A stretch of 64,000 nucleotides of DNA from Opitutaceae bacterium TAV5. GTDB taxonomy: Bacteria; Verrucomicrobiota; Verrucomicrobiia; Opitutales; Opitutaceae. Shown here piece after piece: positions 13,045 to 31,904 of the stretch. The DNA lies in assembly GCA_000242935.3 (NCBI GenBank), contig CP007053.1:2046001-2110000 (forward strand), written 5' to 3'. The position numbers and the translations under genes are program-made. The first letter of the stretch is position 1. The number at the start of each line of letters is the position of its first letter. Under the pieces are notes generated by a model, which did no database searches, was not told the origin of the DNA, and saw only the letters and a list, made by a program, of their open reading frames with translations.

Positions 13045-13053
13045 GATGCGTCG

Positions 13054-13923
13054 TCAGCCTTTCACGCCCCCCATCTGGATGCCTTTGACGAGGTGTTTTT
13101 GCAGGAACACGAACAGCACGATCATCGGGATAACCGACATCGTGACGCCGGCCATGAGCAGGTGAGTGGCCTGGCGGTTGGCGGAGTCGAAGAACAGCAG
13201 ACCGACCGGCAGCGTGTATTTCTCGACCGTCCGGATCATGACCAACGGCCAGAACATGCTGTTGTAGTTTCCGATGAAGGTGAAGATCGTGAGCGTGATC
13301 AGGCCGGGACGCGAGAGCGGAAGTATCACATCCCAGAATACACGCCATTTGCTGGCTCCGTCGATCTCCGCCGCTTCATCCAGGCTGGACGGGATGGTGA
13401 GCATGAACTGGCGAAGCAAAAAGGTGCCGAATGTGCTGAACGACGCCGGCAGGATCAGGCCCGCGAACGTGTCCACGAGGCCGAGCGAGATCATCACCTG
13501 GTAGTTGGGCACCATCATCACCAGGCCCGGCAGCATCATGGTGCCGAGATACAGGAAAAATACTTTTTCACGCCCCGGCCACTGCACGCGCGAAAAACTG
13601 AACGCGGCCAGCGAACTGGTGAACACCTGCAGGAACGTGACCGAGGTCGTGACAAAAAGGCTGTTCCAGTAAAACCGGCCGAAAGGGATCACGCTGAAAA
13701 CTTCCCGGTAATTTTCCCACCGGAATCGGGAAGGCCACCAGTTTTCCAGACCGACCTCGGAGAGCGGTTTCAGGCTGGTCAGCACCATCCACAGAAACGG
13801 AAGGACCATCGTGAAACACAGCAGTGTCATCACGGCGTGAAGCGCGAGCCTGCCGACGGTTTTCCGACGGAGAGCGGGAGCGGTGTCCGGAGAGGCCGGC
13901 GACGGTTTGTCAGTCGTTGACAT
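13054..13923 (-). CDS. Sugar ABC importer permease, MalG-like
   Basis: Inner-membrane permease of the CUT1 class, 289 residues, six predicted membrane segments. The EAA loop that contacts the ATPase is SSLDEAAEIDGASKWRVFWDVILPL. The C-terminal HLVKGIQMGGVKG is the standard family ending. I chose the ATG at 13923 (MSTTDKPSP); its first 14 bases overlap the end of the upstream permease gene in another frame, so translation is probably coupled. Partner of the MalF-like protein immediately upstream. Confidence 0.93.
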   Translation of the reverse strand: MSTTDKPSPASPDTAPALRRKTVGRLALHAVMTLLCFTMVLPFLWMVLTSLKPLSEVGLENWWPSRFRWENYREVFSVIPFGRFYWNSLFVTTSVTFLQVFTSSLAAFSFSRVQWPGREKVFFLYLGTMMLPGLVMMVPNYQVMISLGLVDTFAGLILPASFSTFGTFLLRQFMLTIPSSLDEAAEIDGASKWRVFWDVILPLSRPGLITLTIFTFIGNYNSMFWPLVMIRTVEKYTLPVGLLFFDSANRQATHLLMAGVTMSVIPMIVLFVFLQKHLVKGIQMGGVKG

Positions 13924-15400
13924 AGCGGTTCCCGAATTTCCAGTTGAACATCGTGACGAGGAAAACGAGGGCAAAGAGAGTCCAGGCAACGCCCGAGGCG
14001 TAACCGAGCCGCCCGGTTTCGAAACCCTCCGAATAGATGAAATAGGACAATGTGGTCGTCGCCCCCGCAGGGCCGCCCTGGGTCATCGCGTAGGCCATCT
14101 CGAATCCGCCCTGCAAACCGGAGATGACGGCCATGACGGCGATAAAGAACGTGACCGGAGCAAGCTGTGGCCAGGTGACATGCCAGAAACGCTGGAAACG
14201 GCTTGCGCCGTCGATATCCGCCGCCTCGTAGAGCTCCTGCGGGATGTTGGAAAGCCCGGCGAGGTAGAGCAGCATGCTGTTGGAGCCGACGGCGCCCCAG
14301 AATGCCATGAGCATCAGGGCGGGCTTGGCCCAGTGGTAATCGGTGAGCCAGTTGGGCGGCGTCAGGCCGCCCGCGGCGGCGGACGACCATTCAGGCAATC
14401 CCCGGAAAACGAGACCGAGGCCGAAGAGAGCGCATTGCAGGACGACAAGGCCGAACGAGAATACCAGGACGGTGCCGATGCCCTTGCCGAAACCGCAGGG
14501 GAAATCCTGACCGTCCGGAATCCTTCGTAGTGAAAAAATGGTTACTCCGGCAAACAGTGCGGGCAACAGGAGCACCGCGGAGCGGGGCACATCGCTCCGG
14601 AATAAAAACAGGAGCGGCAATGCCATGAGCACGCATCCGAAAGCCAGACCGCCGGCGCCGATGTCGCCATCCCGCCAGAGATCGCGAAAGCGTCGCAGGC
14701 CGAATCCGAAAACGAGCACGATCATCGCCAGGCTGACCCAGAAACCGGACTGCACGAGCCAGGCGGGCAGCGCGTCGACGCATTGCGCGACCGCCGAGAG
14801 CACGGGCGAGAGCAGGGCATTGAGCGGACCGGTGTGCGGGCTGTAGATTTTTTTCCAGAGGATAAAGGTGGCGATGCCGGCCGTGAAGTGCGGCAGGTAG
14901 CAGAGCGTCCGGTAGATCGTGGAGCCGCCGAGGGCGCCCCCCGCAAAGATCAGCCCTGCCAGGCCGACGAGCACCAGTGTCATGCCGGCGGCGCCCGCGC
15001 CGGCCAGAGCGAGAATGACGGCGCAGGTCACGAGAAGCGCCCCGGCCGCCAGGCGGAGTTTCGTCCGATAACCGGACGTGCCGAAATCGCGACTGAGAAG
15101 AATCGCCAGCACCAGGCTGCCGGCGACGGAGAAAGGAATGCCGAGCATGAAAAAGAGCGTGTTGCCCAGAAATCTCCAGAAGTCGGGATTTTGCAGGAGC
15201 TGCAGGAAATTCCCGATGCCAAAGTGCAGCGGGCCTTCCTTGAACATGTTGTGGTAGCGCAGATCCCAGTTGCTGAACGCCATCACGAGGCTGAAGACCA
15301 GCGGGAAGAGCGTGAACGCCAGAAAGCCGAGGATGTTGGGCGCGAGGAACCCCATGCCGATCTTCAGCATGTGCCAGTTCCTGGGGGTTGGTTTTCTCAT
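13910..15400 (-). CDS. Enlarged MalF-like sugar ABC importer permease
   Basis: First permease of the CUT1 importer. From ATG 15400 (MRKPTPRNWHM) it has 496 residues, against about 300 for ordinary members. The family frame is visible: GFLAPNILGFLAFTLFPLVFS, then GNTLFFMLGIPFS, YRTLCYLPHFTAGIATFILWK, and the EAA loop IPQELYEAADIDGASRFQRF. Two hydrophobic insertions break it. The first (around residues 110-160) adds about two membrane spans before the YRTL segment, and the second (around 210-360) adds four or five spans before NWLTDYHWAKP. E. coli MalF is also large but through a soluble periplasmic loop, not extra membrane spans. It lies 56 bases behind the LacI gene. Confidence 0.88.
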   Translation of the reverse strand: MRKPTPRNWHMLKIGMGFLAPNILGFLAFTLFPLVFSLVMAFSNWDLRYHNMFKEGPLHFGIGNFLQLLQNPDFWRFLGNTLFFMLGIPFSVAGSLVLAILLSRDFGTSGYRTKLRLAAGALLVTCAVILALAGAGAAGMTLVLVGLAGLIFAGGALGGSTIYRTLCYLPHFTAGIATFILWKKIYSPHTGPLNALLSPVLSAVAQCVDALPAWLVQSGFWVSLAMIVLVFGFGLRRFRDLWRDGDIGAGGLAFGCVLMALPLLFLFRSDVPRSAVLLLPALFAGVTIFSLRRIPDGQDFPCGFGKGIGTVLVFSFGLVVLQCALFGLGLVFRGLPEWSSAAAGGLTPPNWLTDYHWAKPALMLMAFWGAVGSNSMLLYLAGLSNIPQELYEAADIDGASRFQRFWHVTWPQLAPVTFFIAVMAVISGLQGGFEMAYAMTQGGPAGATTTLSYFIYSEGFETGRLGYASGVAWTLFALVFLVTMFNWKFGNRYVND

Positions 15401-15456: not shown

Positions 15457-16566
15457 TCAGATCCCGGCAAGTTCGGCGGAGACGAGCATGCTGATGGCGT
15501 TGGCCGGCACTCCGGTCTGGTTCGAAATGAGACCGGTGGTCAGCATGTCCACCGCAAAACGGCAAGCGAGATCGCGGCGATGGTTGAGGCCGGCGACGGT
15601 CTGTCCGGGCGCCCAGTCCGGAGAAACGAGCAAGGGGCGCTGCTTTTCCGGAATGGCGGCGGCATCCATCCAGGCACGCAAGCGGTTCTCGTCTCCGATG
15701 ACCAGGTCGGGACGGGTGCTCCTGAACCACTCCGTGAAGCGGGCGACGTCAGCGGCGCGCCCGGGATCATCCTTGAGCCAGAGCGCGGGCACACGGTCGC
15801 CGGCAGGTATTTCCTTGTGAAAGCGGAGCAGTCCGCTGCTGAAGCCGTGGTTCACCTTCACGTCTTCCTTGTGGGTGATCGCAAGGCCGATCCTGCGGCA
15901 GCCACGCGCCAGGTAGCAGGCGGTCAGATGGCGAAATCCGGTCATGATGTCCGTCCCCACGCGATTCAGGTCCTCGCCGATGTTCCCGAAACCGAGCGAT
16001 ACGGCGACGAAGGGATCGAAACAGAACGATTCCATGGCGTGGGGCTCGTGGCCGGGCAGCACCAGAACCGCCCGGATACCCCGCGCCCGGAGGATGCGGA
16101 ACACCTGCGCGACGGATGCCTTGCTGTTCTCGACCGGGAAAACCTCCACCTTCAGGCGCATGGTCTGCGCATGGTTTTTCAGAAACTCCCACGGCAAATG
16201 CTCCCCCAGCGCTTCCTCCCCGTGCAGGCCGTCGCCGGTTTCATCCCGCGTCCTGTCGCGGCAATGGAGCAGGGCGACGACATTGCCCGAGGTCTCCGCC
16301 CGGGTCTGTTTGGTGATCGAGAGATAGCGGCCGAGGAAAGCATTGGGCCGGTATCCGAGATCGTTGGCGATGCGCTCGATCTTCTCGCGCTGCTCCTTGC
16401 GGACGCAGGGATCGTTTCGCAGCGCGCGGGAAACCGTCATCACGGAGACGCCCGCCCGATCGGCTACCGCACGCATGGAGGCCCGGCTGCTTTGGGCAAA
16501 AACCGTCGCGGTGCCCCGTGATGACGTGGTGGAAGGGAAACAGGGCAGAAGGTCGGTCGGGGTCAT
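15457..16566 (-). CDS. LacI-family transcriptional regulator of the sugar importer operon
   Basis: About 369 residues from ATG 16566. The DNA-binding helix-turn-helix is MRAVADRAGVSVMTVSRALR around residues 31-50, followed by the hinge region and a periplasmic-binding-protein-like effector domain. The 30 residues before the helix-turn-helix look unstructured, so a start nearer to it is possible. It is the promoter-proximal gene of the importer operon and is divergent from an AraC regulator 99 bases away. Its recognition helix SVMTVSRALR is identical to that of the LacI protein at 41298, so the two should read related operators (see findings). Confidence 0.92.
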   Translation of the reverse strand: MTPTDLLPCFPSTTSSRGTATVFAQSSRASMRAVADRAGVSVMTVSRALRNDPCVRKEQREKIERIANDLGYRPNAFLGRYLSITKQTRAETSGNVVALLHCRDRTRDETGDGLHGEEALGEHLPWEFLKNHAQTMRLKVEVFPVENSKASVAQVFRILRARGIRAVLVLPGHEPHAMESFCFDPFVAVSLGFGNIGEDLNRVGTDIMTGFRHLTACYLARGCRRIGLAITHKEDVKVNHGFSSGLLRFHKEIPAGDRVPALWLKDDPGRAADVARFTEWFRSTRPDLVIGDENRLRAWMDAAAIPEKQRPLLVSPDWAPGQTVAGLNHRRDLACRFAVDMLTTGLISNQTGVPANAISMLVSAELAGI

Positions 16567-16665
16567 GCGCAGAGTAAACCCGATCGGCGCTTTTTTTGCG
16601 ATAGCCCTCGCGCTCATCCTGTTGACATTTTCGCTCAGTCCGGGAGACCCTGTTCGCTCAAAACC

Positions 16666-17439
16666 ATGCTGATCTACCTCGTGCACGGAAAGCGATTTTA
16701 CGGGAAAGAGCCCGTGGCGCCCCACCGGAAACACTTCTGGGAATTCCAGGTGGTGGTGCGCGGCTCCATCGGCCTTGTGCTCCCGGAGGGGCCGGCGCCG
16801 CTGAAAAAGAATACCCTGTGGCTGTTTCCTCCCGAGCACCTGCATGGCTGGACAGGCAAGGGCCACGAGTCGGCCACGGTACTCGTTTTCCACTTCCAGT
16901 ATGTGCCGCAGCTCCTGGAAGGCCTCGTAAAACCCGGCGGACACCTGGAGATCCCTCTCACGCCGCGGCAGGCCCGCCGGCTGGTGAAGCTTGCCGAGGA
17001 GGCCGAGCCTTACTGGCGGCATTTTGCTCCCGGCATGGTGATGTGCTACGAGCATGTGCTTTCGGAGCTGGGCATGCTGGTATGGGAGGCGCATCCGGAT
17101 TCCCGTTACGGGATACCCGCGCACTCCGCCCGGAAAAAAGTCAGCGATGCGATGAAATGGTTTGCCAGCCACATGGCAGAGAATCCGTCCCTGGAGCGCA
17201 CCGCGCAATCCGTGGGAGTATCGCCTGCGCATCTGCGCCGGCTTTTCCACGAAATCCTGCGTTCCTCGCCCAAACAGACCTTTGACCAGATGCGTTTCCA
17301 GTGCGCCATCCAGCTGATGGGAGATCCGATGGTGAAGCTCTCCACGGTGGGCGAAGCCTGCGGTTTTGGCAGCGCGAGCTCGTTTTCGCGAGCATTCAAG
17401 ACGAAATTCGGATGCAGCCCCGAAAAATGGCGAAGCTAG
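16666..17439 (+). CDS. AraC-family transcriptional regulator
   Basis: 257 residues. The N-terminal part is a cupin-like sensing domain (VAPHRKHFWEFQVVVRGS, LWLFPPEHLHGWTG), and the C-terminal part has two helix-turn-helices: NPSLERTAQSVGVSPAHLRRLF and VKLSTVGEACGFGSASSFSRAFK, ending in FGCSPEKWR. Divergent from the LacI gene of the importer and followed 110 bases later by a beta-helix protein gene, so it probably controls one or both. The start ATG at 16666 is in a 99-base divergent region containing TTGACA at 16622. Confidence 0.92.
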   Translation: MLIYLVHGKRFYGKEPVAPHRKHFWEFQVVVRGSIGLVLPEGPAPLKKNTLWLFPPEHLHGWTGKGHESATVLVFHFQYVPQLLEGLVKPGGHLEIPLTPRQARRLVKLAEEAEPYWRHFAPGMVMCYEHVLSELGMLVWEAHPDSRYGIPAHSARKKVSDAMKWFASHMAENPSLERTAQSVGVSPAHLRRLFHEILRSSPKQTFDQMRFQCAIQLMGDPMVKLSTVGEACGFGSASSFSRAFKTKFGCSPEKWRS

Positions 17440-17448
17440 GGCGAAGTT

Positions 17449-17461
17449 TGATACATTAACA
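17449..17461. promoter_or_regulatory. Operator-like inverted repeat, TGTTA-CAT-TAACA family (one mismatch)
   Basis: TGATACATTAACA, 10 bases after the AraC stop and about 90 bases before the beta-helix gene start. It matches the 13-base inverted repeat TGTTACATTAACA found at three other promoters in this locus in 12 of 13 positions. Confidence 0.55.
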
Positions 17462-17549
17462 GAACGCCGGAATTTCCCTCCGCCTCTTCCCGCCCCAAGG
17501 TGGGGCGACAAACCGGCCTCCGGCCCTTGCCACGTCCCGATATCACGCC

Positions 17550-18701
17550 ATGAACACCTCTCCGCCTCGCCTCATTTTTTCCTGTAACCGTTTTCTCGCT
17601 ACGGCGGCCATGCTGGTCAGCGTGGCAGCGCTGCCGGCGCGCACGATTTATGTCGACGACACCACCGGCTCCGATGTCTGGACCGGCGCGCAACCGAAAC
17701 CGGAGGCCGGGGACGGGCCGGTGAAAACCATCCAGGCGGCCGTGAACCAGGTCCGTCCCGGAGATGTCATTTTCCTGAATCCGGGCAGCGGCCCTTACCG
17801 GGAAGAAGTGGTGATCAAGCGCGAACACAGCGGCACGAAGGAAGCCCCGGTGACGCTCGAGGGCAACGACTGCCTGATCGACGTCTCCACCGACATATCC
17901 GCCGGCCCCTGGACGCGGGAAGGCGACGACTGGATTCTCGAATCGCCCCGGCTGGCTGAAAACGCTCCTCCGGAAAAGGTGTTTCGCCAGCGCGCCATCG
18001 CCTTCTATAAAGGGCGCCCCGTTCACGTGGCGGATAAAAAAGTGGCCGGCTACCGCATCGCCACCGTAACCGTCGATGCGGGAAAACGCTTCCGTTTCCG
18101 GTTTGCAGACACCGCGGCCAGCCCTCCCTTCACGGATCTGCGCCTGCCGCAGCATCCGACCATCTGCGGAGTCGCTTTTGTCTCTTCTTTCTGGTGGCAC
18201 ATCAACAACCTCAACGTCCGTGGAGCCGGCAACGACGGCTTCAACCTCCATGGGCGCGGCGAAGGCATTGTTATCAGAAACAGCTCTGCCATGTTTTGCG
18301 GCGACGAGGGAGCGAGTTCGCACGATGCGATGCAGGCCGAATTCCACGACTGCCTGTTCGTGTTCAATGCATCATCGGTGGTGGATATCAACAAGAGCCT
18401 CACCTCCTATACAAACTGCATATCGGCGTTCAACGGCGAACCCGGTTTCTGCATGACGGGCAAGAACGGGAAATACACGATCACGGATTCGCTCTCCGCC
18501 GCCAACCGCCGCGCCGAGGCGCAGTCCGAACTTCCGCTGGAGACAACAACCGTCACCAATCTTGTGAAACTGCCGAAAGGTAACGGCGTGCTGGAAAAGA
18601 TCCGCGCCTGGAAGCCCGGTCATCCGCAAATGAAGCGCCTTCTCGCCACCGTCGAGGAGGTCCGCGCGATGGGCGGCGGCCCCGACATCGAAACGAAGTA
18701 A
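17550..18701 (+). CDS. Secreted right-handed beta-helix protein (pectate-lyase-like)
   Basis: 383 residues with a signal peptide (FLATAAMLVSVAALPARTIY). The segment TIYVDDTTGSDVWTG followed by GPVKTIQAAVNQVRPGDVIFL is the usual opening of parallel beta-helix surface or pectate-lyase-fold proteins. Repeated short strands with N/D/G turns follow (INNLNVRGAGNDGFNLHG, GIVIRNSSAMFCGDEG, AEFHDCLFVFNASSVVDINKS). I do not see catalytic residues I could assign to a named lyase or hydrolase family. Its role is probably binding or cleavage of an external polysaccharide. An operator of the shared family lies upstream. Confidence 0.75.
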   Translation: MNTSPPRLIFSCNRFLATAAMLVSVAALPARTIYVDDTTGSDVWTGAQPKPEAGDGPVKTIQAAVNQVRPGDVIFLNPGSGPYREEVVIKREHSGTKEAPVTLEGNDCLIDVSTDISAGPWTREGDDWILESPRLAENAPPEKVFRQRAIAFYKGRPVHVADKKVAGYRIATVTVDAGKRFRFRFADTAASPPFTDLRLPQHPTICGVAFVSSFWWHINNLNVRGAGNDGFNLHGRGEGIVIRNSSAMFCGDEGASSHDAMQAEFHDCLFVFNASSVVDINKSLTSYTNCISAFNGEPGFCMTGKNGKYTITDSLSAANRRAEAQSELPLETTTVTNLVKLPKGNGVLEKIRAWKPGHPQMKRLLATVEEVRAMGGGPDIETK

Positions 18702-18770
18702 CGTATCTGGTGTCATGCAGGCCGGGGGGGGGCCGGAGCGGGCTCTGGAGAGGCCTCGCTCCGTCCAGGC

Positions 18771-18801
18771 AAAAAAGCCCCGCCGGAAGGGATGGTGGGG
18801 C
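18771..18801 (-). terminator. Intrinsic terminator of the sialidase-fold gene
   Basis: Stem 18777-18784 with 18794-18801 (GCCCCGCC / GGTGGGGC, one G-U pair), loop nine bases. Read on the minus strand it is followed at once by six U (18776-18771), the arrangement expected 11 bases after the minus-strand gene ending at 18812. The opposite orientation could also serve the convergent beta-helix gene. Confidence 0.65.
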
Positions 18802-18811
18802 GGTTGTGTTT

Positions 18812-20107
18812 TCAGTGACAGACAGCCGCGCTCATGGGCAGACTCATGTCTGCCGCGCCTGGTCCGCACGCTTCGCGGGCATGGCGGGCGGCGACCGCGG
18901 CGGGATCGGGACGGGTAATGATCCGCCCGAGTATCGAGTTTCCAGATACACAGGTCCGGGCGATCACATCATCCTCGGTGAAGAGGGCGAGCAGGACTTC
19001 GCCGTCCGTGTCACGGTTGCGGTCGTAGGAGATGAAAATCACGCCGTCGTCGAACTGGCCGCCATCGGGATAGGAGACGCCCTCGCGTTCGTCAAGCAGG
19101 AGGCCGCCACGCCAAGTAAGGCCGTCGTCGTCGGAAAGAAACGCGGCGAGGTGGGAACGTTTTTCCGTGCGCACGCCGATCTGTTCGCCGTGCCGGACGA
19201 GCAGAAGGCGGCCGGAACGCAGGCGGCGCACAAAGTGGCGCGCGCTGACGTTGAGGATGCCCGTCTCCGAAGGCGGCACCCATGTCGCCCCGCGATCGCT
19301 CGAGGTGCTTTGCCAGATGTCGCCCGAGGCGGAGCGGGCCGTGAGCCAGACGCTGCCATCGCGGCGTTCGACGAGATTCACTTCGTCGAAGTTCGGCCTG
19401 GGGATGCGCACCCCGCCACGCCGCGCCCAGGTTTTGCCTTGGTCAGTGGAGGCGAGGACACCCGCGCCACGCTCGTTGTCGAGTTCGTGAAATGCCTCGA
19501 TGAAGGGAGCGGATGTGGGGTGGCGAAGTTTGTTGCGATCCCAGAGCGAGGCGGGCAAAAGCCAGTCGCCGGAGGAGAGAACGATGGGTTTGTTGAGCGA
19601 GCAGCCGTGCCCGATGCGCACGGGCGGCGTCCATTCAGGGATGGCGGCGTCGGGGGCGTCGCACCGGGTGAACCAGATGCCGGCGCGGCCGTCGTAGTAG
19701 GTCATTGACTGGTCGAAGAAAAGCCAGAGGCGGTCGAGCGGGTCGAGCCAGAGGTTGCCGACGATGACGCGGCGCGCCATGCCGAGGCGGACTTCGTCGT
19801 GCGGGTTGATCAGAAGGCGGGGGGAAGACCAGGTGGCGCCGCGGTCATCGCTGGTGGCGAGGACGAAGAATGCCTTTTCGCTATCTCCACCGCCTACCCA
19901 GCACACCCAGAGGCGGCCTCCGCGGGTGCGTTCGGTGCCGATAGTCATCCCATAGTCAAGTTCCGGATACGTGATGGGCGGCACGGATGTTCCGGAGCCC
20001 TGGAGGACGGGCGGGACAAGAGCGGGCGCGGCAAGCTCAAGCAAAGCGGACGGTGTCGTGGCGTCGTGGATGATGGCAGGGGGGGAGGATTCGGTGGATG
20101 CGGACAT
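18812..20107 (-). CDS. Sialidase-fold (BNR/Asp-box) protein, no signal peptide
   Basis: 431-residue beta-propeller of the sialidase superfamily. Asp-box motifs are visible: SDDRGATW, STDQGKTW, SSDRGATW and SDDDGLTW, together with catalytic-region-like LVERRDGSVWLTARS. I do not see the FRIP/RIP arginine motif of classical sialidases near the N-terminus, so the true substrate may not be sialic acid. The protein begins MSASTESSPPAIIHD without a leader and is predicted cytoplasmic. It is encoded 48 bases downstream of a pseudopilin gene on the same strand, forming a two-gene operon preceded by a shared-family operator. A good terminator follows. Confidence 0.82.
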   Translation of the reverse strand: MSASTESSPPAIIHDATTPSALLELAAPALVPPVLQGSGTSVPPITYPELDYGMTIGTERTRGGRLWVCWVGGGDSEKAFFVLATSDDRGATWSSPRLLINPHDEVRLGMARRVIVGNLWLDPLDRLWLFFDQSMTYYDGRAGIWFTRCDAPDAAIPEWTPPVRIGHGCSLNKPIVLSSGDWLLPASLWDRNKLRHPTSAPFIEAFHELDNERGAGVLASTDQGKTWARRGGVRIPRPNFDEVNLVERRDGSVWLTARSASGDIWQSTSSDRGATWVPPSETGILNVSARHFVRRLRSGRLLLVRHGEQIGVRTEKRSHLAAFLSDDDGLTWRGGLLLDEREGVSYPDGGQFDDGVIFISYDRNRDTDGEVLLALFTEDDVIARTCVSGNSILGRIITRPDPAAVAARHAREACGPGAADMSLPMSAAVCH

Positions 20108-20155
20108 GATGAGAGTGGTGAGGACATGAGGGCGACGGCAACAGCAGCGGTGGCG

Positions 20156-20839
20156 TCAGGGATTTCCGTTATATTTCCAGAAAAGGTTCTGTGGATCGAC
20201 AGGCACCTGTTCGCGTTTTCGTGTCTCGACGTGGCCGTCGAGAAACAAGGCGTTCACACTGCCCCGGTGGACATAGTCGTCTTCTTTGACAAGTTGTTTT
20301 GAGGAGCCCTCGGTCATGTTCACCTCGAAGTACCAACTGCTCTCCGATGACCAGACGCCATCCATGAGGGACGTCGTGCGCGATGGCGTCGTGACTTCGC
20401 TCAGGCGGATGGGTTTGTCGCTTTCGCTCCGGTTGTAGTCGTTCCATCCATACGTGAAGGGTTGCGCTCCCGAGACGCCGCGTTTTTTGCGGGCGGAGGG
20501 GCAGCTGAACACGCCTTTGTTGCTGGTCTTGTTGTTCAGCCCGAATACATACGCCGGCAGTCCTTCGCTGCCTCTCCAGATGATGTTGGGGTTTTCGGAA
20601 TCGGTGCCTTTGTTCGGGCCCGGCAGGTGATCCTTGTGATCGGCGGCGAACAGGAGGATGGCCGGATGGAGTTGACGAAGGTTGGCGATGCACCTGGCTT
20701 TGTCCGCCAGTTCGCGGGTGCGTCCGATTGCAGCCAGGCTCAGCGCCGCAAGGATGCCGATGATGGCAATCACCGTGAGCAATTCGACAAGGGTGAAACC
20801 GCACTTGCGGGCAGGGTGAATTCGGGGAAGAAAGTTCAT
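20156..20839 (-). CDS. Solitary pseudopilin with H-X9-DG C-terminus
   Basis: Type II secretion/prepilin-like protein. The start ATG 20839 gives a short basic leader (MNFLPRIHPARKCG) cut before FTLVELLTVIAIIGIL, the class III signal with Gly at -1 and Glu at +5. The C-terminus carries an exact H-X9-DG motif (HRGSVNALFLDGHV). No pilus or secretion machinery gene is adjacent; instead it precedes a sialidase-fold gene. Such stand-alone pseudopilins are common in Planctomycetes, Verrucomicrobiota and Lentisphaerota, but their job is not settled. Here it is one of five in the window, each beside glycan-related genes. Confidence 0.92.
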   Translation of the reverse strand: MNFLPRIHPARKCGFTLVELLTVIAIIGILAALSLAAIGRTRELADKARCIANLRQLHPAILLFAADHKDHLPGPNKGTDSENPNIIWRGSEGLPAYVFGLNNKTSNKGVFSCPSARKKRGVSGAQPFTYGWNDYNRSESDKPIRLSEVTTPSRTTSLMDGVWSSESSWYFEVNMTEGSSKQLVKEDDYVHRGSVNALFLDGHVETRKREQVPVDPQNLFWKYNGNP

Positions 20840-20921
20840 GTCGGGATGTGTCCGGTTTTGGCGGCGAACAATGTAATCAGGATAATCGACACTCCGGATG
20901 GCCATGCCAATTTCTCTGGAT

Positions 20922-20934
20922 TGTTAATGTAACA
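20922..20934. promoter_or_regulatory. Operator-like inverted repeat (perfect copy)
   Basis: TGTTAATGTAACA, the reverse complement of TGTTACATTAACA; arms TGTTA and TAACA with a three-base spacer. Located 83 bases upstream of the pseudopilin start. Confidence 0.65.
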
Positions 20935-21014
20935 AGCTGATCCCGCCCAACGACAGTCGATAACCGTTCCGGGCAGACAGCAGTGTGCAGGGGAGCGAGG
21001 AGAGGGTTTCCCTT

Positions 21015-21027
21015 TGTTACATTAACA
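21015..21027. promoter_or_regulatory. Operator-like inverted repeat (perfect copy)
   Basis: TGTTACATTAACA, 131 bases upstream of the PEP-CTERM gene start; same arms and spacer as the sites at 20922, 25010 and 17449. Confidence 0.65.
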
Positions 21028-21157
21028 GGCCGGTTTCATTGAACCCGGCGAGAGGAGGCATTGGCTGGAACATGGATTCGCCTGCCAACACCGTGCGTGT
21101 GGCGTCTCCGCATCGAACCCTGAACACAAAGACTAACCATCAGACCAACCTATCATC

Positions 21158-22750
21158 ATGAAAGCACAGAAACCCTCCTGCTTGCCCGTCCGAATCAAAA
21201 CCTCGTTGGTCGTGACTGCGGCAGTTGTCATCTTTTCATCCGCCCAGGCAGCCAATCGCTATTTCAGTGTCACGGATGGCGACTGGAGCGCGTCAGGCAA
21301 CTGGGAATCTTCGAATCTTCCCGGAAGCGCTGACACCGCCACTGTCGGGCAAAGTGATGCCAACAGCACACGGGCAAGCATTGCCCATGCCCGGATAAAC
21401 GCCGGTGACAATATCAGCATAACCCGGCTGACTATCGGCAATGTCGGTGCCAATGGAACGTCCGCAGAGGGCACCGTCACCATGACCGGCGGAACCCTGG
21501 GCATCAGTGGATATCTGCTGCTCGCGGAAACAGCAAACACCTCGGGAACGTTCACCCTCTCGGGCGGCACCGTAAGTATGGGCAACACCATTTTTCTCAA
21601 TCGCGGCGGTGGTTCCAAAGGAGCGATGAATGTCTCCGGAGGTACGATCAACGGGACATCCCTCTACGTCGGCGGCACCAATGGCAGCTCATCCGCGACC
21701 ACGAACGCAGAACTGAATGTCTCCGGCGGATCAATCCTGCTGAACGATATTTTCCGGATCGCTCACGGTAACAGCACGGGGAACTCCACAGGCGTGGTGA
21801 ACCACACCGCCGGTTTGATCAGCGCAAGCGGAGTCGAGGTGCAGTCCGCCAACGGTGGCAGCGGCACCTACAACCTCTCCGGCGGGGAACTCCGGATTGG
21901 CACGGGGGGGAACAACGGCCAGTTGCGCGGTGGCGGTGCCGGCACGAGAGCGTTCAACTGGAGTGGAGGCACGATCGGTGTTGGCGACTCTTCCCTGCTC
22001 ACGGTCGCCAATTCCCTCGGTAGCCTGAATCTGCTGAGCGGAGGCAGCGACGCCGTGTTTGACACGACCAATACCAACGCCGCCGCCGCCAGGATCCTTG
22101 TTCAGAGCTCGATCACCGGGGACGGCAATCTGACCATCCGTGGTATAGGCACCGTCGAATTCGCAAACTCCGTCGTAACGTATACAGGCGACACCACCGT
22201 CGAAAGCGGCACCCTGCTGCTCAACGCCAGCAGCCCGACCTCCGTAAAAAGCGCCAACGTCCTCGTGGGCAGCGTTGCCACGCTGGGCGGTAACGGCAGC
22301 TTTACCGGCCTCGTCACCGCGAATGGCAAGCTCGCCGCAGGCGGCGTCGGTTCAGTCGGTACGCTCACGTTTGACCAACTCCTGACCCTCGGGGATGCAA
22401 CGATCCAGTGGGATTTTGTGGATACAGCCAATGCCGATCTGTACACCATCACCGGCGGCATTGATTTCTCCGGCGGCGATCCCGTCCAGATTTCGATCAA
22501 CGCCCTCGCCGGCAGCACCGTAAACGAGAACGACACCTTCACCATCTTCCAGGGCGATGTTTCCGGCATCGTTGCGAGCAACTTTGTCGTGCAGGACGAT
22601 CTCGCCGCGTGGCAAGGCAACTGGAAGGTCCGCATTACCGGTGACAGCGTGCAACTGGTGGCCGTCGCCATCCCCGAGCCGTCAACCTGCGCGTTTGCAC
22701 TCGGAGGCATTGCCGCACTTGTCCTCTGCATTCGCCGGTTCCGGATGTAA
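21158..22750 (+). CDS. PEP-CTERM surface protein with autotransporter-associated strand repeats
   Basis: 530 residues. Signal peptide (SLVVTAAVVIFSSAQA) is followed by long Gly/Ser/Thr-rich strand repeats (GTVTMTGGTLGISGYLLLAE, GTFTLSGGTVSMGN, AMNVSGGTINGTSLYVGG) and an autotransporter-associated repeat segment (GDTTVESGTLLLNASSPTS, LAAGGVGSVGTLTFD). The C-terminus is a PEP-CTERM signal: IPEPST, a hydrophobic span ALGGIAALVLCI and a basic tail RRFRM, meaning recognition by an exosortase encoded elsewhere. It should be an extracellular or surface-anchored filamentous or matrix protein. Base composition is slightly less GC-rich than neighbours, with many Asn codons. Confidence 0.92.
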   Translation: MKAQKPSCLPVRIKTSLVVTAAVVIFSSAQAANRYFSVTDGDWSASGNWESSNLPGSADTATVGQSDANSTRASIAHARINAGDNISITRLTIGNVGANGTSAEGTVTMTGGTLGISGYLLLAETANTSGTFTLSGGTVSMGNTIFLNRGGGSKGAMNVSGGTINGTSLYVGGTNGSSSATTNAELNVSGGSILLNDIFRIAHGNSTGNSTGVVNHTAGLISASGVEVQSANGGSGTYNLSGGELRIGTGGNNGQLRGGGAGTRAFNWSGGTIGVGDSSLLTVANSLGSLNLLSGGSDAVFDTTNTNAAAARILVQSSITGDGNLTIRGIGTVEFANSVVTYTGDTTVESGTLLLNASSPTSVKSANVLVGSVATLGGNGSFTGLVTANGKLAAGGVGSVGTLTFDQLLTLGDATIQWDFVDTANADLYTITGGIDFSGGDPVQISINALAGSTVNENDTFTIFQGDVSGIVASNFVVQDDLAAWQGNWKVRITGDSVQLVAVAIPEPSTCAFALGGIAALVLCIRRFRM

Positions 22751-22783
22751 ACGATTCACAAAAAACATTACTCTCTCAAATTC

Positions 22784-22815
22784 TGCCGCGGCGATTCCTG
22801 CCGCGGCATATTTTC
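22784..22815 (+). terminator. Intrinsic terminator after the PEP-CTERM gene
   Basis: Perfect 9-base stem TGCCGCGGC / GCCGCGGCA (22784-22792 and 22800-22808), seven-base loop, followed by TATTTTCATTTTT. It ends the PEP-CTERM transcript and separates it from the next beta-helix gene. Confidence 0.75.
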
Positions 22816-22889
22816 ATTTTTCCTGCCGTCTGCCGTCTCCCCTCCCCTCTCCCGGCGGGGGGGGGCAGCCACAACACCTCTGTGACAAC

Positions 22890-24893
22890 ATGCCAAAAAA
22901 AATCCTGCTTATCACCCTTCTTTCAAGCATCGCCTGGACATTCGCAACCGCTGCTCTTCCCGCCTCCCCTGCGGCCACACCCGCCACCAACGACGGCAAA
23001 ACGGTCTTCCATGTGGATGATTTCGGCGCGAAGCCGGATGATGCGATCAATGACTGCGAGGCGATCCGGTCCGCCCTCAAAGCCGCCATCGAGGCCGGGC
23101 CCGGTGCACAGGTCGTTTTCTCTCCCGGCACCTACCGGGTGGGGCTTTCGGAAAAAGAACTCGCCGAAAAACCGGTCCAGACCACCAAGGCTTTCAACAA
23201 GCGCCATTTCACCTATTTCGATCTGGGACGCGCGAAAGGCATCCACCTCAAAGGCGATGGCACGCAACTCCTCGTCACCGATCCGCGCGCGGTGCTTTTC
23301 GATTTCCAGGGCTCCCTCGACTGCACGCTCAGCGGCGTCACCATCGATCTCGATCCGCTGCCCTTCACCCAAGGAAAAATCCTGGCGGTCAACCGGAACG
23401 CACGCACCTTCGACATCGAAATTCCCGACGGCTTTCCGCTCCTCGGCACGTATCCGTGGCTGACCTTCGGCCCGCAGTCGGACTGGCAAAACCGGCTCAT
23501 CATCTTCGGCGAATCATCCCGGGAAAACTGCGACCGTGCGCGTCGCGGCGTGCCTCTCCTCCAGTACGAATTTCGTCCCCGCCTCAACTCGGTGCGGGAT
23601 ATCCTCTCCTTTGAAAAAACCGGAGCGCGCACCTTTCGCATCACCTCCAGGGCGCCTCTTGACGAAGCCGTGACAGCCGGGCGCACCCTGGTTTATTCCT
23701 CCAAAGTCGGCGGCGGCCCGCTGATCGAAGCCGGCGGGCAGAACGTGCGGCTGGAAGATGTCACCGTCCACGCCTCGCCCGGATTTGTCGTCTCGGCCTC
23801 CTCCGCCGACAACCTGCAACTCAAACGCTTCGCCGCCCGGCTCAAACCCGGCCGGCTTGTCGTCGGCACATCCGACTGTATCCATGTCCGTGCCACACGC
23901 GGAGGTCCGCGGGTCGAGGATTCGTTTTTTGAAGGCATCCAGGACGACATGTTCAACATCTCCGGCAACCCGCTCCCCATCAACAAAATCACCTCCGCCA
24001 CGGAAATTCTCGTGGACCGCAGCGTGAACTCCGCAATCAACCGCGGCCGCGTGGCGGAAGGCGACACCGTTTACGCCTACGCCGTGCCCGAAGCCCGGAT
24101 CAAGGGCGAAGCCCGTGTTTTGCGACTCGACCAGCCCGGTGGCAGCAAAGCCCCCAAGCGCATCCTTCTCGATCGCCCCATTCCCGGACTGCAACCGGAC
24201 GATCTGCTCTACAGCCGTGAAGCGGGCAACCCGGGTGCCGTCATCCGCAACAGCACCTTCCGTGGGGGGCTCCGCTCCGCGATCATGCATATGGCCGGCG
24301 ACGGCACCCTCATCGAAGGCAACACCTTCGAAAACATGCACAATGCCATCGCCCTTCGCCAGTCCATCGGATCCACCTACAACGGCCAAGGCGGCATGGT
24401 GCGCAACATCACCATCCGCAACAACGTCTTTCGCGGATGCCATATGCGCGGCGTCACCGAACACATAAATCATCCCGATGCCGCCATCGGCGTGATGCTT
24501 TTCCCCGATTCCACCTCCCGCCAGATCGACAACGTGCTCATCGAGGGCAACCGCATTTTCGAACCCGGCGTCACCGGCATCTGGCTGAGCAACGTCACCG
24601 GAGCGATCGTGAGAAACAACGAAATCGTCGCATACCCCGACAGCGAACGCTTCTCCGGTCCGGAGCAGCCGCAACGGCGCGCCCTGCGCATTCACAACTG
24701 CGAAAATGTTGTGGTTGACGGCCTTGTTGTCCGCGAACCGCGCCTCGACCTCGCCGCCGCCATTTCCATCGACTCCGCCTCGTCGCGTATCGACATAAAG
24801 AATACCATACTTGATATTGGCCGGGCCGTAAAAATCCGGCGCGACGACAACCCTCCCCTCAAACCCGTCGTCACCCGACCAGTCAAAAAATGA
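22890..24893 (+). CDS. Secreted right-handed beta-helix glycan-active protein
   Basis: 667 residues from ATG 22890 (MPKKILLITLLSSIAW), with a signal peptide. The opening VFHVDDFGAKPDDAINDCEAI is the pectate-lyase-superfamily start seen in polygalacturonases and related beta-helix hydrolases. Further on are GVTIDLDPLPFTQGKI, DCIHVRATRGGPRVEDS and FFEGIQDDMFNISG, resembling the active-site turns of beta-helix galactosidases (GH110-like) or GH28, but I cannot assign the family by eye. C-terminal repeats (NVLIEGNRIFEPGVTGIWLSN, AIVRNNEIVAY) complete the helix. Probable role is external attack on a polysaccharide; the gene follows the PEP-CTERM gene in the same direction. Confidence 0.78.
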   Translation: MPKKILLITLLSSIAWTFATAALPASPAATPATNDGKTVFHVDDFGAKPDDAINDCEAIRSALKAAIEAGPGAQVVFSPGTYRVGLSEKELAEKPVQTTKAFNKRHFTYFDLGRAKGIHLKGDGTQLLVTDPRAVLFDFQGSLDCTLSGVTIDLDPLPFTQGKILAVNRNARTFDIEIPDGFPLLGTYPWLTFGPQSDWQNRLIIFGESSRENCDRARRGVPLLQYEFRPRLNSVRDILSFEKTGARTFRITSRAPLDEAVTAGRTLVYSSKVGGGPLIEAGGQNVRLEDVTVHASPGFVVSASSADNLQLKRFAARLKPGRLVVGTSDCIHVRATRGGPRVEDSFFEGIQDDMFNISGNPLPINKITSATEILVDRSVNSAINRGRVAEGDTVYAYAVPEARIKGEARVLRLDQPGGSKAPKRILLDRPIPGLQPDDLLYSREAGNPGAVIRNSTFRGGLRSAIMHMAGDGTLIEGNTFENMHNAIALRQSIGSTYNGQGGMVRNITIRNNVFRGCHMRGVTEHINHPDAAIGVMLFPDSTSRQIDNVLIEGNRIFEPGVTGIWLSNVTGAIVRNNEIVAYPDSERFSGPEQPQRRALRIHNCENVVVDGLVVREPRLDLAAAISIDSASSRIDIKNTILDIGRAVKIRRDDNPPLKPVVTRPVKK

Positions 24894-24954
24894 CGTCTCC
24901 CTCAGGGGTTTTGTAGTGCGGAGCGTCGTACCTGTTCAGACAGCCCGCGCCCTG

Positions 24955-24980
24955 TAGCTGCGAACGTAAGTTCGCAGGCT
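24955..24980. repeat. REP-like palindrome
   Basis: CTGCGAAC-GTAA-GTTCGCAG, a perfect 8-base stem with a GTAA tetraloop (24958-24977), extended by AGC/GCT with a one-base bulge. It sits between the beta-helix gene and the oxidoreductase. It may be a mobile REP element or a transcript-stabilising hairpin. Confidence 0.5.
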
Positions 24981-25009
24981 CCGGGGGGAGGGGGGACGCC
25001 GCGCATCGA

Positions 25010-25022
25010 TGTTACATTAACG
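25010..25022. promoter_or_regulatory. Operator-like inverted repeat, TGTTA-CAT-TAACA family (one mismatch)
   Basis: TGTTACATTAACG, about 105 bases upstream of the oxidoreductase start. Matches the consensus in 12 of 13 positions. It would place the five-gene run from 25127 onward under the same regulator as the PEP-CTERM and pseudopilin genes. Confidence 0.6.
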
Positions 25023-25126: not shown

Positions 25127-26530
25127 ATGCAAACCAATTCTCGTGCAAAGACCTATGCCGTTGTCGGTGTGGGCGGCAGGTCGAAATTCTACACCCACGC
25201 CATCCTGAAGGAGCATGCGGCCACCACCCGCCTCGTGGCCATCTGCGACATCAACCCGATCGCCCTCGAACTCGCCATGGAGGATCTCGGGAACCTCGGC
25301 GCGAACATCACCGCGTGGCACGCGGATGAGTTCGACACGATGATCGCCACCCACCGCCCCGACGTCGTTCTCGTGACAAGCAAGGACTGCACCCATGACC
25401 ACTACATCTGCCGGGCCATGGAGCTCGGTTGCGACGTGATCACCGAGAAGCCCATGACCATCGACGCGGCCAGATGTCGCCGGATTATTGATACACGCCG
25501 CCGCACAGGACGCCGCTGCCGGGTCGCGTTCAACTACCGCTACATGCCGCGCAGCACGCGCATCAAGGAGTTGCTGATGGAGGGAGCCATCGGCGCCATT
25601 ACCTCGGTCGTGTTCACCTACAATCTCGGCCTCATTCACGGCCCCTCCTACTTCAACCGCTGGCACGCCGAAATGGAACAGTCCGGGGGCCTGCTCGTGC
25701 ACAAGGCCACGCACCACTTCGATCTCGTCAACTTCTGGATCGGCGAAAACCCGCGCTCCGTTTTTGCGTGCGGGAAACGCAACTATTTCACGCCCGCAAT
25801 GGCCGCCCGGATGGGTCTCCGCAACTGCGGTCCGCGCTGCTCCGGCTGCCTCGAAGCAACGCTCTGCCCGTTCTACAGCAACATCCGCGCAAAAAACCCC
25901 GCGCCTCCCGGTCAGCGCCTTGCGGGCGATTTCGATCCGCACTACTATAACGACCTCTGCGTGTTTCGCGAGGCAGTGAATATCCCCGACACCATGCATG
26001 CCCTGGTGGGCTACGAATCCGGGGCCATGGTCAACTACAACCTCGTCACTTTCGGCGACAAGGAGTACATGAACATCACCTTCCACGGCACGCTCGGACG
26101 TCTGGAAGCCAGGGGTGAAACCCCCTTCCGCATTTATCCGCACAACGGCCCCATGTATGAAGTGCCTGTGGCGAATGCCGTCGGCGGCCATGGCGGCGCC
26201 GACCCGGTTCTCCTGGAGGACCTTTTCGGCGCCGCCCCGCCCTTCGATCCCTGCCGCCGCGCGGCAGATGAGCGCGCCGGCGCCATGTCCATCCTCATCG
26301 GCATCGCAGCCAACCACTCCATCGCAACCGGCCGGCAGATGCTCATCGATGACCTCGTGCCCGGCCTGGATACCCCTGACCACACCGTCATGCCACGCAT
26401 CACCGACGATATCGAGATCGCTCCCGTCAGCGCCTGGATTGCCCGCCGCCGCCACGAGGCCGATGAACGCCGTCGCAAGGCCCGCCTTACCCAGGCGGAT
26501 TCCTTTACCGCCCCCGCTACCCTCGCGTAG
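25127..26530 (+). CDS. Gfo/Idh/MocA-family oxidoreductase with a four-cysteine cluster
   Basis: 467 residues from ATG 25127 (MQTNSRAKTYAVVGVGG). NAD(P)-binding Rossmann motif VVGVGGRSK at residues 12-20, the family hallmark TEKPMT at 106-111 and the HHFDLVNFW segment near 196 that normally supplies a catalytic His. It likely oxidises or epimerises a sugar or sugar acid released from the polysaccharide. Unusual is a compact cysteine set C234-x3-C238-x2-C241-x5-C247 (CGPRCSGCLEATLC), which could bind Zn or an iron-sulfur centre. Cytoplasmic. First gene of a tightly packed run with the rhamnosidase (9-base gap), sialidase-fold protein and esterase. Confidence 0.9.
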   Translation: MQTNSRAKTYAVVGVGGRSKFYTHAILKEHAATTRLVAICDINPIALELAMEDLGNLGANITAWHADEFDTMIATHRPDVVLVTSKDCTHDHYICRAMELGCDVITEKPMTIDAARCRRIIDTRRRTGRRCRVAFNYRYMPRSTRIKELLMEGAIGAITSVVFTYNLGLIHGPSYFNRWHAEMEQSGGLLVHKATHHFDLVNFWIGENPRSVFACGKRNYFTPAMAARMGLRNCGPRCSGCLEATLCPFYSNIRAKNPAPPGQRLAGDFDPHYYNDLCVFREAVNIPDTMHALVGYESGAMVNYNLVTFGDKEYMNITFHGTLGRLEARGETPFRIYPHNGPMYEVPVANAVGGHGGADPVLLEDLFGAAPPFDPCRRAADERAGAMSILIGIAANHSIATGRQMLIDDLVPGLDTPDHTVMPRITDDIEIAPVSAWIARRRHEADERRRKARLTQADSFTAPATLA

Positions 26531-26539
26531 AATGTTCCG

Positions 26540-28738
26540 ATGAGTTCAGCCACATTGCCCGTCGCCGGAGAAACATGGTTCGTCCCTGCCACGACCCCGG
26601 CATCCCCTTCCTCGTGGTTTGCATGGCGCGTGCGCATCCGTGTCGACAACCTCGGCGAGCCCGTCCTGGTCCGCCTGGCTGTCGATTCCAAATACTGGCT
26701 CCACGTCAACGGAGTCCCTGTCATTCGCGAGGGATCGCTCAAGCGCGGGCCCGCTCCGGGAAAAACCTGGGGCGACGACCTTGATCTCACCCCCTGGCTC
26801 CGGCCCGGCGACAACCTGCTCGCCATTCACCACTGGTATTTCGGACGACATGGTTTCTCTCATGCCGACAGCGGCGATGCCGTCCTCCACTTTCGGCTGC
26901 TCTCGGGCAACGCCTGCGTTTCCCGCTCCTGGAAGGTCATCCGCGACCCCGCGTTCTTTGATGCTGGCACTGTCCGTCCCGGTTCCGTCCTCGGTTATCG
27001 CCTGCCGGAAAACAGCATCGGCCATGACGCCCGCCATGCCCTTGGCGACTGGACATCCGCCACCTTCGACGACACCGCCTGGCCTGAACCGGCGGACGCT
27101 CCCGCAAACGTCCGGAGCAGCGTGCTCCCTCGCCCCATCCCTCAGTTTTTCTGGAGAGAGCGCACAACCGCCCCCGTCCCGCCTGGCGTGCGCGACGGCC
27201 TCGGTTGCACACTCTATCGCGTCGCCCTTCCCTGTAACCTCCAGTTCACTCCGTACTTCAAAATAAAGGCCCGCGCCGGTCTGAAAATCCGGATCCTGAG
27301 CGATTCGCCCGAACATTGCCTCACCGCTGAATACATCACCCGCGACGGCGATCAGGAATGGGAAAGCCCCGGCTGGCTCAACGGCCACGAAATCATCTTT
27401 CACATGCCCGACTCGATAAAAGTCCAGCTCCTCGGGTACCGTGAAACCGGATACGACTGTGCCCTGTCCGGAAAATTCTCCTGCGGCGATGCCGGCCTCG
27501 ACGAACTCTGGCGCCGCTCCCTGCGCACGCTCCACCTCACGATGCGCGACACCTTCATGGATTGCCCCGACCGGGAGCGCGCCCAGTGGTGGGGCGACGA
27601 GGTGATCCAGCTAGGACAGGTTTTTTATTCGCTGGGCCCGTCCGCGCATGCCCTCGTCCGCAAAGGCATCCTCGAACTCGCCGCCTGGCAACGCGCCGAC
27701 GGCGTTCTCTATTCGCCGATCCCCTCGGGAAACTGTTTTCGTGAACTCCCCCTGCAATCGCTCGCCTCCATCGGCCGGTACGGTATTTTTGAATACGTTC
27801 TTCACACCGGCGATAAGGAAACCGCGCGCGCCGTCTTCCCCGCGCTGCAACGCTACCTCGCGCTCTGGGCGACGGACGCCGCCACCGGCCTGCCCGTTGC
27901 CCGCGACGGCGACTGGCGCTGGGGCGACTGGGGCCAAAACTGCGATTACGAAACCCTCACCGCCTGCTGGTTCCGGCTGGCGCTCGATGGCGTGGCCGCC
28001 CTCGCCTCCCGCCTTGGCGAAACCGCCTGCGCCGGGGCGCTCTCGTACCGCGCCCGCCGCCTCGCCGAGGCCGTCCGTCGGTACTGCCGCACGGCGGAAG
28101 GCAGTTTTCGCAGTCCGTCGCACGACGGCCCGCCCGACGACCGCGCCAATGCCCTTGCCGTGCTTTGCGGATTCCACGACCCACAGGATGCGCCCGCGCT
28201 GGCCGACCTGCTCTTCCGCGAGCGCCACGCCAGCCCCTACATGGAAAAATATGTGCTGGAATCCCTCTTCGCGCTCGGCCGCGCCGACCTCGCTCTCCGC
28301 CGGATGCGTGAGCGCTATCGTGGCATGCTGGCCATGCCCGTCACCACCCTGCCCGAGCTTTTCCCGGAATCCGGCCAGCCCAACAGCACGTACAATCACT
28401 CCTGGAGCGGCGCGCCACTGCTCGTCCTCTCGCGTTACGTCGCCGGGCTCGAACCGCTCTGCGATGCATGGCGCGAAATCCGCTTTTGCCCGCAACCCGG
28501 AGGACTCGCCCGCTTCGATGTCGCATTCGAAACTCCCGCCGGTCCTGTGCAGGCAAGTTACCGGACCGGAAACGGACGCTTCAGCATCGACCTCGAAATC
28601 CCGGCCGACACCTGGGTCGAATGCGATTTCCGCCATGTCCTCGCATCGACGCCCGCCACGGATGATATCCCCGTGTATTCCCGTCTGCCCGGTGGACGAC
28701 ACAGTTTTTCCGGCCCCGCCCTTTCCCTTTGCCCATGA
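26540..28738 (+). CDS. GH78-like alpha-L-rhamnosidase family protein
   Basis: 732 residues. The N-terminal part is a beta-sandwich (VRLAVDSKYWLHVNGVPV) that resembles the carbohydrate-binding domain of bacterial rhamnosidases; the centre is an (alpha/alpha)6 barrel. The catalytic-region signature DCPDRERAQWWGDE at residues 341-354 corresponds to the DCPQRER...GD block of GH78. The C-terminal beta domain (LARFDVAFETPAGPVQASY) is also present. There is no signal peptide, so it acts on imported oligosaccharides. It overlaps the next gene by four bases (ATGA). Substrate is predicted to contain terminal rhamnose or a related sugar. Confidence 0.85.
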   Translation: MSSATLPVAGETWFVPATTPASPSSWFAWRVRIRVDNLGEPVLVRLAVDSKYWLHVNGVPVIREGSLKRGPAPGKTWGDDLDLTPWLRPGDNLLAIHHWYFGRHGFSHADSGDAVLHFRLLSGNACVSRSWKVIRDPAFFDAGTVRPGSVLGYRLPENSIGHDARHALGDWTSATFDDTAWPEPADAPANVRSSVLPRPIPQFFWRERTTAPVPPGVRDGLGCTLYRVALPCNLQFTPYFKIKARAGLKIRILSDSPEHCLTAEYITRDGDQEWESPGWLNGHEIIFHMPDSIKVQLLGYRETGYDCALSGKFSCGDAGLDELWRRSLRTLHLTMRDTFMDCPDRERAQWWGDEVIQLGQVFYSLGPSAHALVRKGILELAAWQRADGVLYSPIPSGNCFRELPLQSLASIGRYGIFEYVLHTGDKETARAVFPALQRYLALWATDAATGLPVARDGDWRWGDWGQNCDYETLTACWFRLALDGVAALASRLGETACAGALSYRARRLAEAVRRYCRTAEGSFRSPSHDGPPDDRANALAVLCGFHDPQDAPALADLLFRERHASPYMEKYVLESLFALGRADLALRRMRERYRGMLAMPVTTLPELFPESGQPNSTYNHSWSGAPLLVLSRYVAGLEPLCDAWREIRFCPQPGGLARFDVAFETPAGPVQASYRTGNGRFSIDLEIPADTWVECDFRHVLASTPATDDIPVYSRLPGGRHSFSGPALSLCP

Positions 28739-30773: not shown

Positions 30774-31904
<1,131 letters not shown>

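Follow-up and report, generated by a model that had tools for sequence, protein, structure and literature searches.

A 13-bp odd palindrome before four polysaccharide operons as the putative operator of a LacI-family protein in Opitutaceae bacterium TAV5

According to the main text of Ravcheev et al. 2014 (PMC4052901), local sugar regulons of the LacI family consist of a regulator placed beside its targets, which form few operons and serve one pathway. In the same text, 72% of the regulators are autoregulated, and most palindromic sites precede their start codons by 30-140 bp. Of the 1303 motifs described there, 1251 are even palindromes with a length of 16-22 nt, a central CG being present in 1173; odd motifs measure 17, 19 or 21 nt, within a search range of 14-24 bp. 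The string "Verrucomicrobi" is absent from the main text of this survey. Here a locus of this kind is described in Opitutaceae bacterium strain TAV5, which is of termite hindgut origin (PMC4358385). The DNA analysed, called the window, is a stretch of 64,000 nucleotides of contig CP007053.1 (forward-strand positions 2,046,001 to 2,110,000), in which four copies of the 13-mer TGTTACATTAACA precede operons of a polysaccharide locus. The 13-mer is very probably the operator of the LacI-family protein encoded next to them, and the four copies would constitute a private four-operon polysaccharide regulon. LacI is proposed as the binder because the copies are confined to the locus, its recognition helix matches the half-site, related lacI genes share half-sites and spacing, and the neighbouring AraC-family protein has a different element.

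As in the regulons of that survey, the regulator gene lies beside its few putative targets, and the distances from operator to start codon (82-130 bp, using the likelier starts for the pilin and Gfo/Idh genes) fall within the reported zone. In contrast to the prevailing autoregulation, the lacI promoter shows an AraC-type element. The surveyed motifs are mostly even with a central CG, whereas the 13-mer is an odd palindrome without it and, with 3 bp between its pentamers, is outside the range given there. With respect to the recognition code, Camas, Alm and Poyatos 2010 (PMC2978694) associate, in the text of their paper, Met at AA-16 with TT at NT-5/NT-4 and Arg at AA-20 with G at NT-6, which is also the combination observed here. 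Their scan was made for 14-bp palindromes, and the family pattern contains a central CG; the half-sites described here are nearer to each other by one base. Compared with that frame, natural lac O1 is longer by one base (NT-2bis) and the window operator shorter by one. Departures from the usual site architecture also exist for another LacI-family protein, the clostridial CcpA with its cre-var sites (PMC5263246). However, repeat and spacer lengths vary in cre-var, as the text of that report describes them, while the spacer is 3 bp at the four sites and in the 13 exact pairs located around related LacI genes.

Four copies of the 13-mer in one locus

A previous sequence-only reading had reported two perfect and two one-mismatch copies of the 13-mer, and all four were found at their places (Table 1): with up to 2 mismatches, the window holds exactly 4 matches against 0.07 expected, a number reached in 0 of 100 shuffles. 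A genome-wide search, set beforehand as the check that might refute a shared operator, covered 7.42 Mb (a chromosome of 7,317,842 bp and a plasmid of 99,831 bp). The motif is not common, and the only 4 places with at most one mismatch are the four window sites. Because the reversed 13-mer, taken as control, also has 4 matches at this threshold, the number of sites is uninformative and it is the clustering that tells: the chance that four random genome places fall in one 7.6-kb span is about 4e-9. Thus, the repeat is above chance, as had been claimed, by its clustering and not by its genome-wide number. At up to 2 mismatches there are 22 places (45 for the reversed control), and the 18 extra ones, which are scattered, are background.

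All four sites have the same orientation relative to the downstream gene. The triplet ATT is present 10 bases downstream of every copy, followed by G at three sites and by T at the fourth (ATTT); such a run has a chance of 0.0006 within 25 nt and of 0.003 anywhere in 180 columns. The genes that had been named behind the sites were confirmed by the analysis of neighbouring genes, and the proposal of one shared operator for a small local regulon is supported.

The 13-mer is composed of TGTTA and TAACA half-sites separated by a 3-bp spacer (CAT), and has neither the even symmetry nor the central CG of canonical LacI operators, being one base tighter than the usual LacI frame. A full-text literature search for the operator spellings, which covered few subscription papers, returned no related paper, and a search on the LacI proteins of Verrucomicrobia, and on LacI operators that are short, odd-sized or lack CG, gave nothing on point among the papers listed; given that coverage, this is weak evidence of novelty.

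Recognition residues and half-sites of LacI genes

The window LacI matches PF00356 at 2.8e-16, and its core has no Pfam match at 0.001. The best PDB matches of its predicted model (pLDDT 83) are RbsR, CelR, PurR and LacI, over about 360 columns with a TM-score of about 0.5 and a root-mean-square deviation of about 11. Domain match and model together place the protein in the LacI family, with a helix-turn-helix and a sugar-binding-like core. An N-terminal extension of 25-30 residues with low model confidence (16477-16566) precedes the helix-turn-helix, and the true start of the protein may lie further in. Its recognition residues are V15, M16 and R20 (V-M-TVSR), with which the half-site T-G-T-T-A (GTT) agrees under the code of Camas et al., and its hinge reads PNAFLGRYL. 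The candidacy of the LacI protein at 15457 as binder of the 13-mer is supported by these residues and by the half-sites found at related lacI genes.

Homologues of this LacI at E ≤ 1e-40 number 8, in 7 of 371 other Opitutales genomes (32-36% identity). Their loci, 127 kb in total, contain the loose palindrome TGTTANNNTAACA (TGTTA-NNN-TAACA) 13 times at up to one mismatch. Of these matches, 11 lie no farther than 250 bp from lacI and are distributed over 6 of the 8 loci; of the other two loci, L124 has a match 1.4 kb away and L118 has none. In 394 kb around 22 AraC loci there are 5 matches, one of them exact (L094, where no LacI domain was found at the locus). Around 16 LacI loci whose helix carries A, V or S followed by M, all 13 exact occurrences of TGTTA-Nk-TAACA have k=3, with none at k=0-2 or 4-11.

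The association with the recognition residues was examined in 112 aligned LacI domains (114 minus two rows with identical surroundings), 19 from relatives and 93 from this genome. The latter come from 90 loci among its 137 LacI-like matches, about 45 matches being left out, and upstream sites were counted within 400 bp. TGTTA-N2..4-TAACA at up to one mismatch is present upstream of 19 of the 31 LacIs with Met16 and Arg20 and of 0 of the 81 others (Fisher 1e-13), with spacings N3 in 13, N4 in 5 and N2 in 1. Among the 18 Met16/Arg20 relatives from other Opitutales, 12 have TGTTA-NNN-TAACA. These counts are not independent, because the 18 relatives were found by similarity to the window LacI and some are mutually close (L174/L175); for this reason the comparison inside this genome alone is also given (5/13 versus 0/80, 2e-5). 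When other spacings are included, one one-mismatch pair appears at a LacI without Met16 (L237, no spacer).

The spacing also goes along with residue 15, which is small in the 13 LacIs with a 3-bp site (A in 11, S in 1, V in 1) and L, L, V, R and R in those with a 4-bp site. A PDP hinge is found in 10 of the 13 LacIs with 3-bp sites (mostly PDP...LM). That the hinge sequence sets the spacing was not upheld: L217 has the hinge PDPEVARLM yet a 4-bp spacing, and L136 and L144 have hinges of the PNPLVSALM type yet no site. Two other lacI genes of TAV5 carry the same half-sites at 2 bp (L138, TGTTACATAACA) and at 4 bp (L217, TGTTACCCGTAACA), and spacing may keep the same half-site apart between paralogues.

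Several observations weigh against the assignment to LacI. The Met-TT signal is missing from one of two mutational data sets, as stated in the text of Camas et al. (PMC2978694). No upstream site was found at 4 of the 18 Met16/Arg20 relatives (L100, which is the closest, L107, L167 and L176), nor within 400 bp at 8 of the 13 Met16/Arg20 LacIs of this genome. The window lacI is one of these 8: the TGTTA/TAACA site is absent in 400 bp upstream of its start, and autoregulation, a common but not defining trait of local LacI-family regulators, is thus not seen. The window hinge is unlike those of the 3-bp-site LacIs, and also unlike that of L217. Genome-wide, the loose palindrome shows no enrichment: at up to one mismatch it has 27 places, and the reversed control has 67. 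The window LacI has no close orthologue (best identity 36% among the 371 other genomes), and therefore the four target sites are not directly footprintable by comparison. A promoter scan showed no clear promoter at the window sites (3 in 10 kb versus 2.2 expected). Finally, the Met16/Arg20 LacI encoded at 3692049 could in principle bind the four sites too.

Mode of action and rival readings

In the mechanism that we consider probable, a LacI dimer on each of the four sites would repress the operon behind it and an oligosaccharide would release the repression. In the relatives, the operator mostly precedes the lacI ATG by between a few bases and some tens of bases, and CAA is often present at a fixed distance before it. 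On the other strand, TTG occupies offset 11 in 15 of the 46 readings made on 23 sites, against at most 3 for any other offset. Many of the loci L119-L125, L168-L175 and L131 show the order TTGACA-like box, about 12 bases, TGTTATGATAACA, lacI start codon. This arrangement suggests that the TTGACA-like box serves as the -35 and that the operator covers an extended -10, which would mean autorepression; the transcripts are perhaps leaderless. The window sites are farther from start codons than the lacI sites of the relatives.

A variant compatible with binding by LacI is that the protein activates, the downstream ATTG holding the TTG of a -35 box and the operator centre lying near -54. The fixed spacing and orientation of the downstream ATT at the four sites suit this variant, as does TTGGCA-N17-GATTAT after site 2. 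However, no -10 is recognisable by eye at the other three sites, the pattern comes from only four sequences, and the related LacI sites just before their own lacI start suit repression, so that activation is considered unlikely. Two further promoter arrangements were discarded. The 13-mer as extended -10 or -35 of the target genes finds no partner hexamer at three of the four sites (by eye and by promoter scan), and CAAT-N10-operator as an oppositely directed promoter would, at sites 1 and 4, fire into the 3' ends of neighbouring genes.

With regard to looping, an extra C-terminal helix makes E. coli LacI a tetramer, capable of loops of the lac O1-O3 type. Looping between the sites at 20922 and 21015 had been suggested from their distance (centres 93 bp apart, 8.9 turns). 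The predicted structure gives the idea no support: the LacI model ends in strands after H331-347, without a further helix, so that a lac-type tetramer bridging the 93 bp is not favoured.

It is very improbable that the 13-mer belongs to a regulator encoded elsewhere, such as another Met16/Arg20 LacI. The genome does show a very large expansion of LacI-type regulators: at E ≤ 1e-8 it has 137 LacI-like matches, of which a few contain internal stops. At least one other member, the Met16/Arg20 lacI at 3692049, has a 3-bp-spaced site (TGTTATGATAACA) 72 bp upstream; the exact loose palindrome is found at this place, twice in the window and at 3243581, some 320 bp behind another lacI, four times in all. 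However, the site at 3692049 differs from the 13-mer in its centre, and all copies of the 13-mer with up to one mismatch are within 9 kb of the window lacI.

The AraC-family protein at 16666 was also named as a possible binder; in this reading it would activate all four operons. No regulator lies closer, its gene stopping 9 bp short of site 1, and the common orientation of the sites with the downstream ATT(G) is what an asymmetric AraC site might show. Nevertheless, the 13-mer is a palindrome, and relatives of this protein carry another element. Relatives at E ≤ 1e-45 (35-51% identity) occur in 19 of the 371 other Opitutales genomes; a search of genome contigs with the AraC protein as query returned no relative. 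With weaker relatives added, 29 distinct loci outside the window were examined, including 3 paralogues from this genome; L082, a repeat of L094, was not counted. Common to many of them is an upstream element, GAGCGAAAATGTCAA, which is followed at 21 bp by another GAGCG and often has GGCTATgg behind; in L054 both halves read GATCG. The first half, at up to 3 mismatches, is upstream in 17 of the 29 loci; among the 15 loci of at least 40% identity, 14 have it. Divergent araC-gfo pairs sharing the direct-repeat element were seen in 11 loci, 10 from other Opitutales (L053, L054, L055, L080, L085, L089, L090, L091, L093 and L094) and one a paralogue in this genome (L060). Seven of these have an intact GAGCG as second half, L054 and L080 deviate from it by one base, and L060 and L085 by two. 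In the 6 loci with the first half where no divergent Gfo gene was found, the second is absent in 4 (L058, L083, L084, L088) and present in L086 and in L087, whose contig ends there. These counts indicate a tendency, though no strict rule, for the second half to accompany the divergent gene. TATAAT-like boxes 6-10 nt before the ATG were noticed by eye at the gfo promoters of some AraC loci.

Direct-repeat sites of the araI1-araI2 type are known for AraC-family proteins, and the two GAGCG half-sites 21 bp apart before a divergent gene resemble them; this likeness is a feature of the AraC element and not of the 13-mer. Both halves of the element also precede the window araC, free of mismatches; the divergent gene here is lacI, whose ATG at 16566 is separated from GGCTAT by 34 nt. 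In the whole genome, the 16-base half-site has a single exact match and three further ones that differ at one base. The 13-mer is not a site common to the AraC relatives (0 matches in 22 loci at up to one mismatch, 3 at 2 mismatches). Because the relatives carry a different element, which is present here, and lack the 13-mer at that threshold, the AraC protein most likely has another site; its suggested role as binder of the 13-mer was not borne out and is highly improbable. A CATT direct repeat 17 bp apart inside the sites, considered as an AraC-like pattern, was superseded by the LacI evidence.

That the copies are chance or a mobile repeat without regulatory role can be dismissed with near certainty, for although the reversed 13-mer is equally frequent, the copies are clustered, placed before genes in one orientation, palindromic and in agreement with the LacI code, and their flanks share little beyond ATT(G).

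Genes of the locus and biological meaning

The features of the span that was read are collected in Table 1. The polysaccharide targeted by the locus perhaps contains rhamnose, judging only from the enzymes encoded. A terminator-like hairpin (22784-22808) stands between the PEP-CTERM and second beta-helix genes; such hairpins are about as numerous in the scan as in shuffles (12 versus 10.9). The ATP-binding cassette (ABC) transporter ATPase gene is located in the run behind operator 4 and the genes for permeases and binding protein behind lacI. As they sit in separate runs, one transporter may be split between two regulators.

Table 1. Features of the locus (window coordinates)
Feature	Coordinates	Strand	Remarks
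Solute-binding protein and two permeases	11557-15400 (5' end approximate)	-	same orientation behind lacI; likely lacI-transporter operon
LacI-family regulator	15457-16566	-	PF00356; recognition helix VSVMTVSRALRN; proposed binder of the four operators
AraC-type element TGAGCGAAAATGTCAA-N5-TGAGCG-N4-GGCTAT	16601-16637	-	GAGCG directly repeated at 21 bp; lies between araC and lacI, directed towards lacI
AraC-family regulator	16666-17439	+	proposed controller of the lacI operon
Operator copy 1, TGATACATTAACA	17449-17461	+	one mismatch; 88 bp before the beta-helix gene
Secreted protein	17550-18701	+	beta-helix from sequence reading; without Pfam match
BNR/sialidase-like protein	18812-20107	-	downstream of the pilin gene
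Pseudopilin-like protein (N_methyl)	20156-20839	-	
Operator copy 2	20922-20934	-	perfect; 82 bp before the likely pseudopilin gene start (20839)
Operator copy 3	21015-21027	+	perfect; 130 bp before the PEP-CTERM gene
PEP-CTERM protein	21158-22750	+	PEP motif read in the sequence; autotransporter-type repeat
Second beta-helix protein	start about 22890	+	between the PEP-CTERM and Gfo/Idh genes
Operator copy 4, TGTTACATTAACG	25010-25022	+	one mismatch; 104 bp before the likely Gfo/Idh start (25127)
Gfo/Idh/MocA oxidoreductase	25127-26530	+	first in the run after operator 4
Alpha-L-rhamnosidase	26540-28738	+	
BNR/sialidase-like protein	28729-29922	+	
SASA acetylesterase	29796-30707	+	
Sugar ABC transporter ATPase (MalK type)	30774-31904	+	possibly same operon as the run after operator 4
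Pilin gene		+	after the ABC ATPase gene; last of the span read (11557 to 32600)

The AraC protein, through its own element before lacI, would control the lacI-transporter operon, and LacI would control the four polysaccharide operons; for this reason the locus is read as a putative two-step circuit. In a broader reading, which we regard as an even call, an Opitutales LacI subgroup with Met16, Arg20 and a small residue 15 would bind the contracted 13-bp odd palindrome TGTTA-N3-TAACA without central CG, so that a minor-groove wedge at a CG step would not be available in its normal form. In this locus lacI would have lost its self-control and come under an AraC protein that elsewhere faces a Gfo/Idh gene, this gene having passed to LacI, so that the two-step circuit would be a rewired one. 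As far as the sequence goes, the locus appears to be a LacI regulon of known kind, unusual in the spacing of its operator and apparently arranged as a circuit of AraC over LacI.

The finding links a regulator to putative sites in a group, Verrucomicrobia, that the main text of the LacI survey (PMC4052901) does not mention, and the data from the 112 domains agree with the published code for LacIs with Met16/Arg20. If one LacI subgroup keeps its half-sites at a fixed and shorter distance, as the data suggest, this would test to what extent the hinge and the central CG step are required, and the exchange of regulators between gfo and lacI, if true, would be a concrete case of circuit rewiring.

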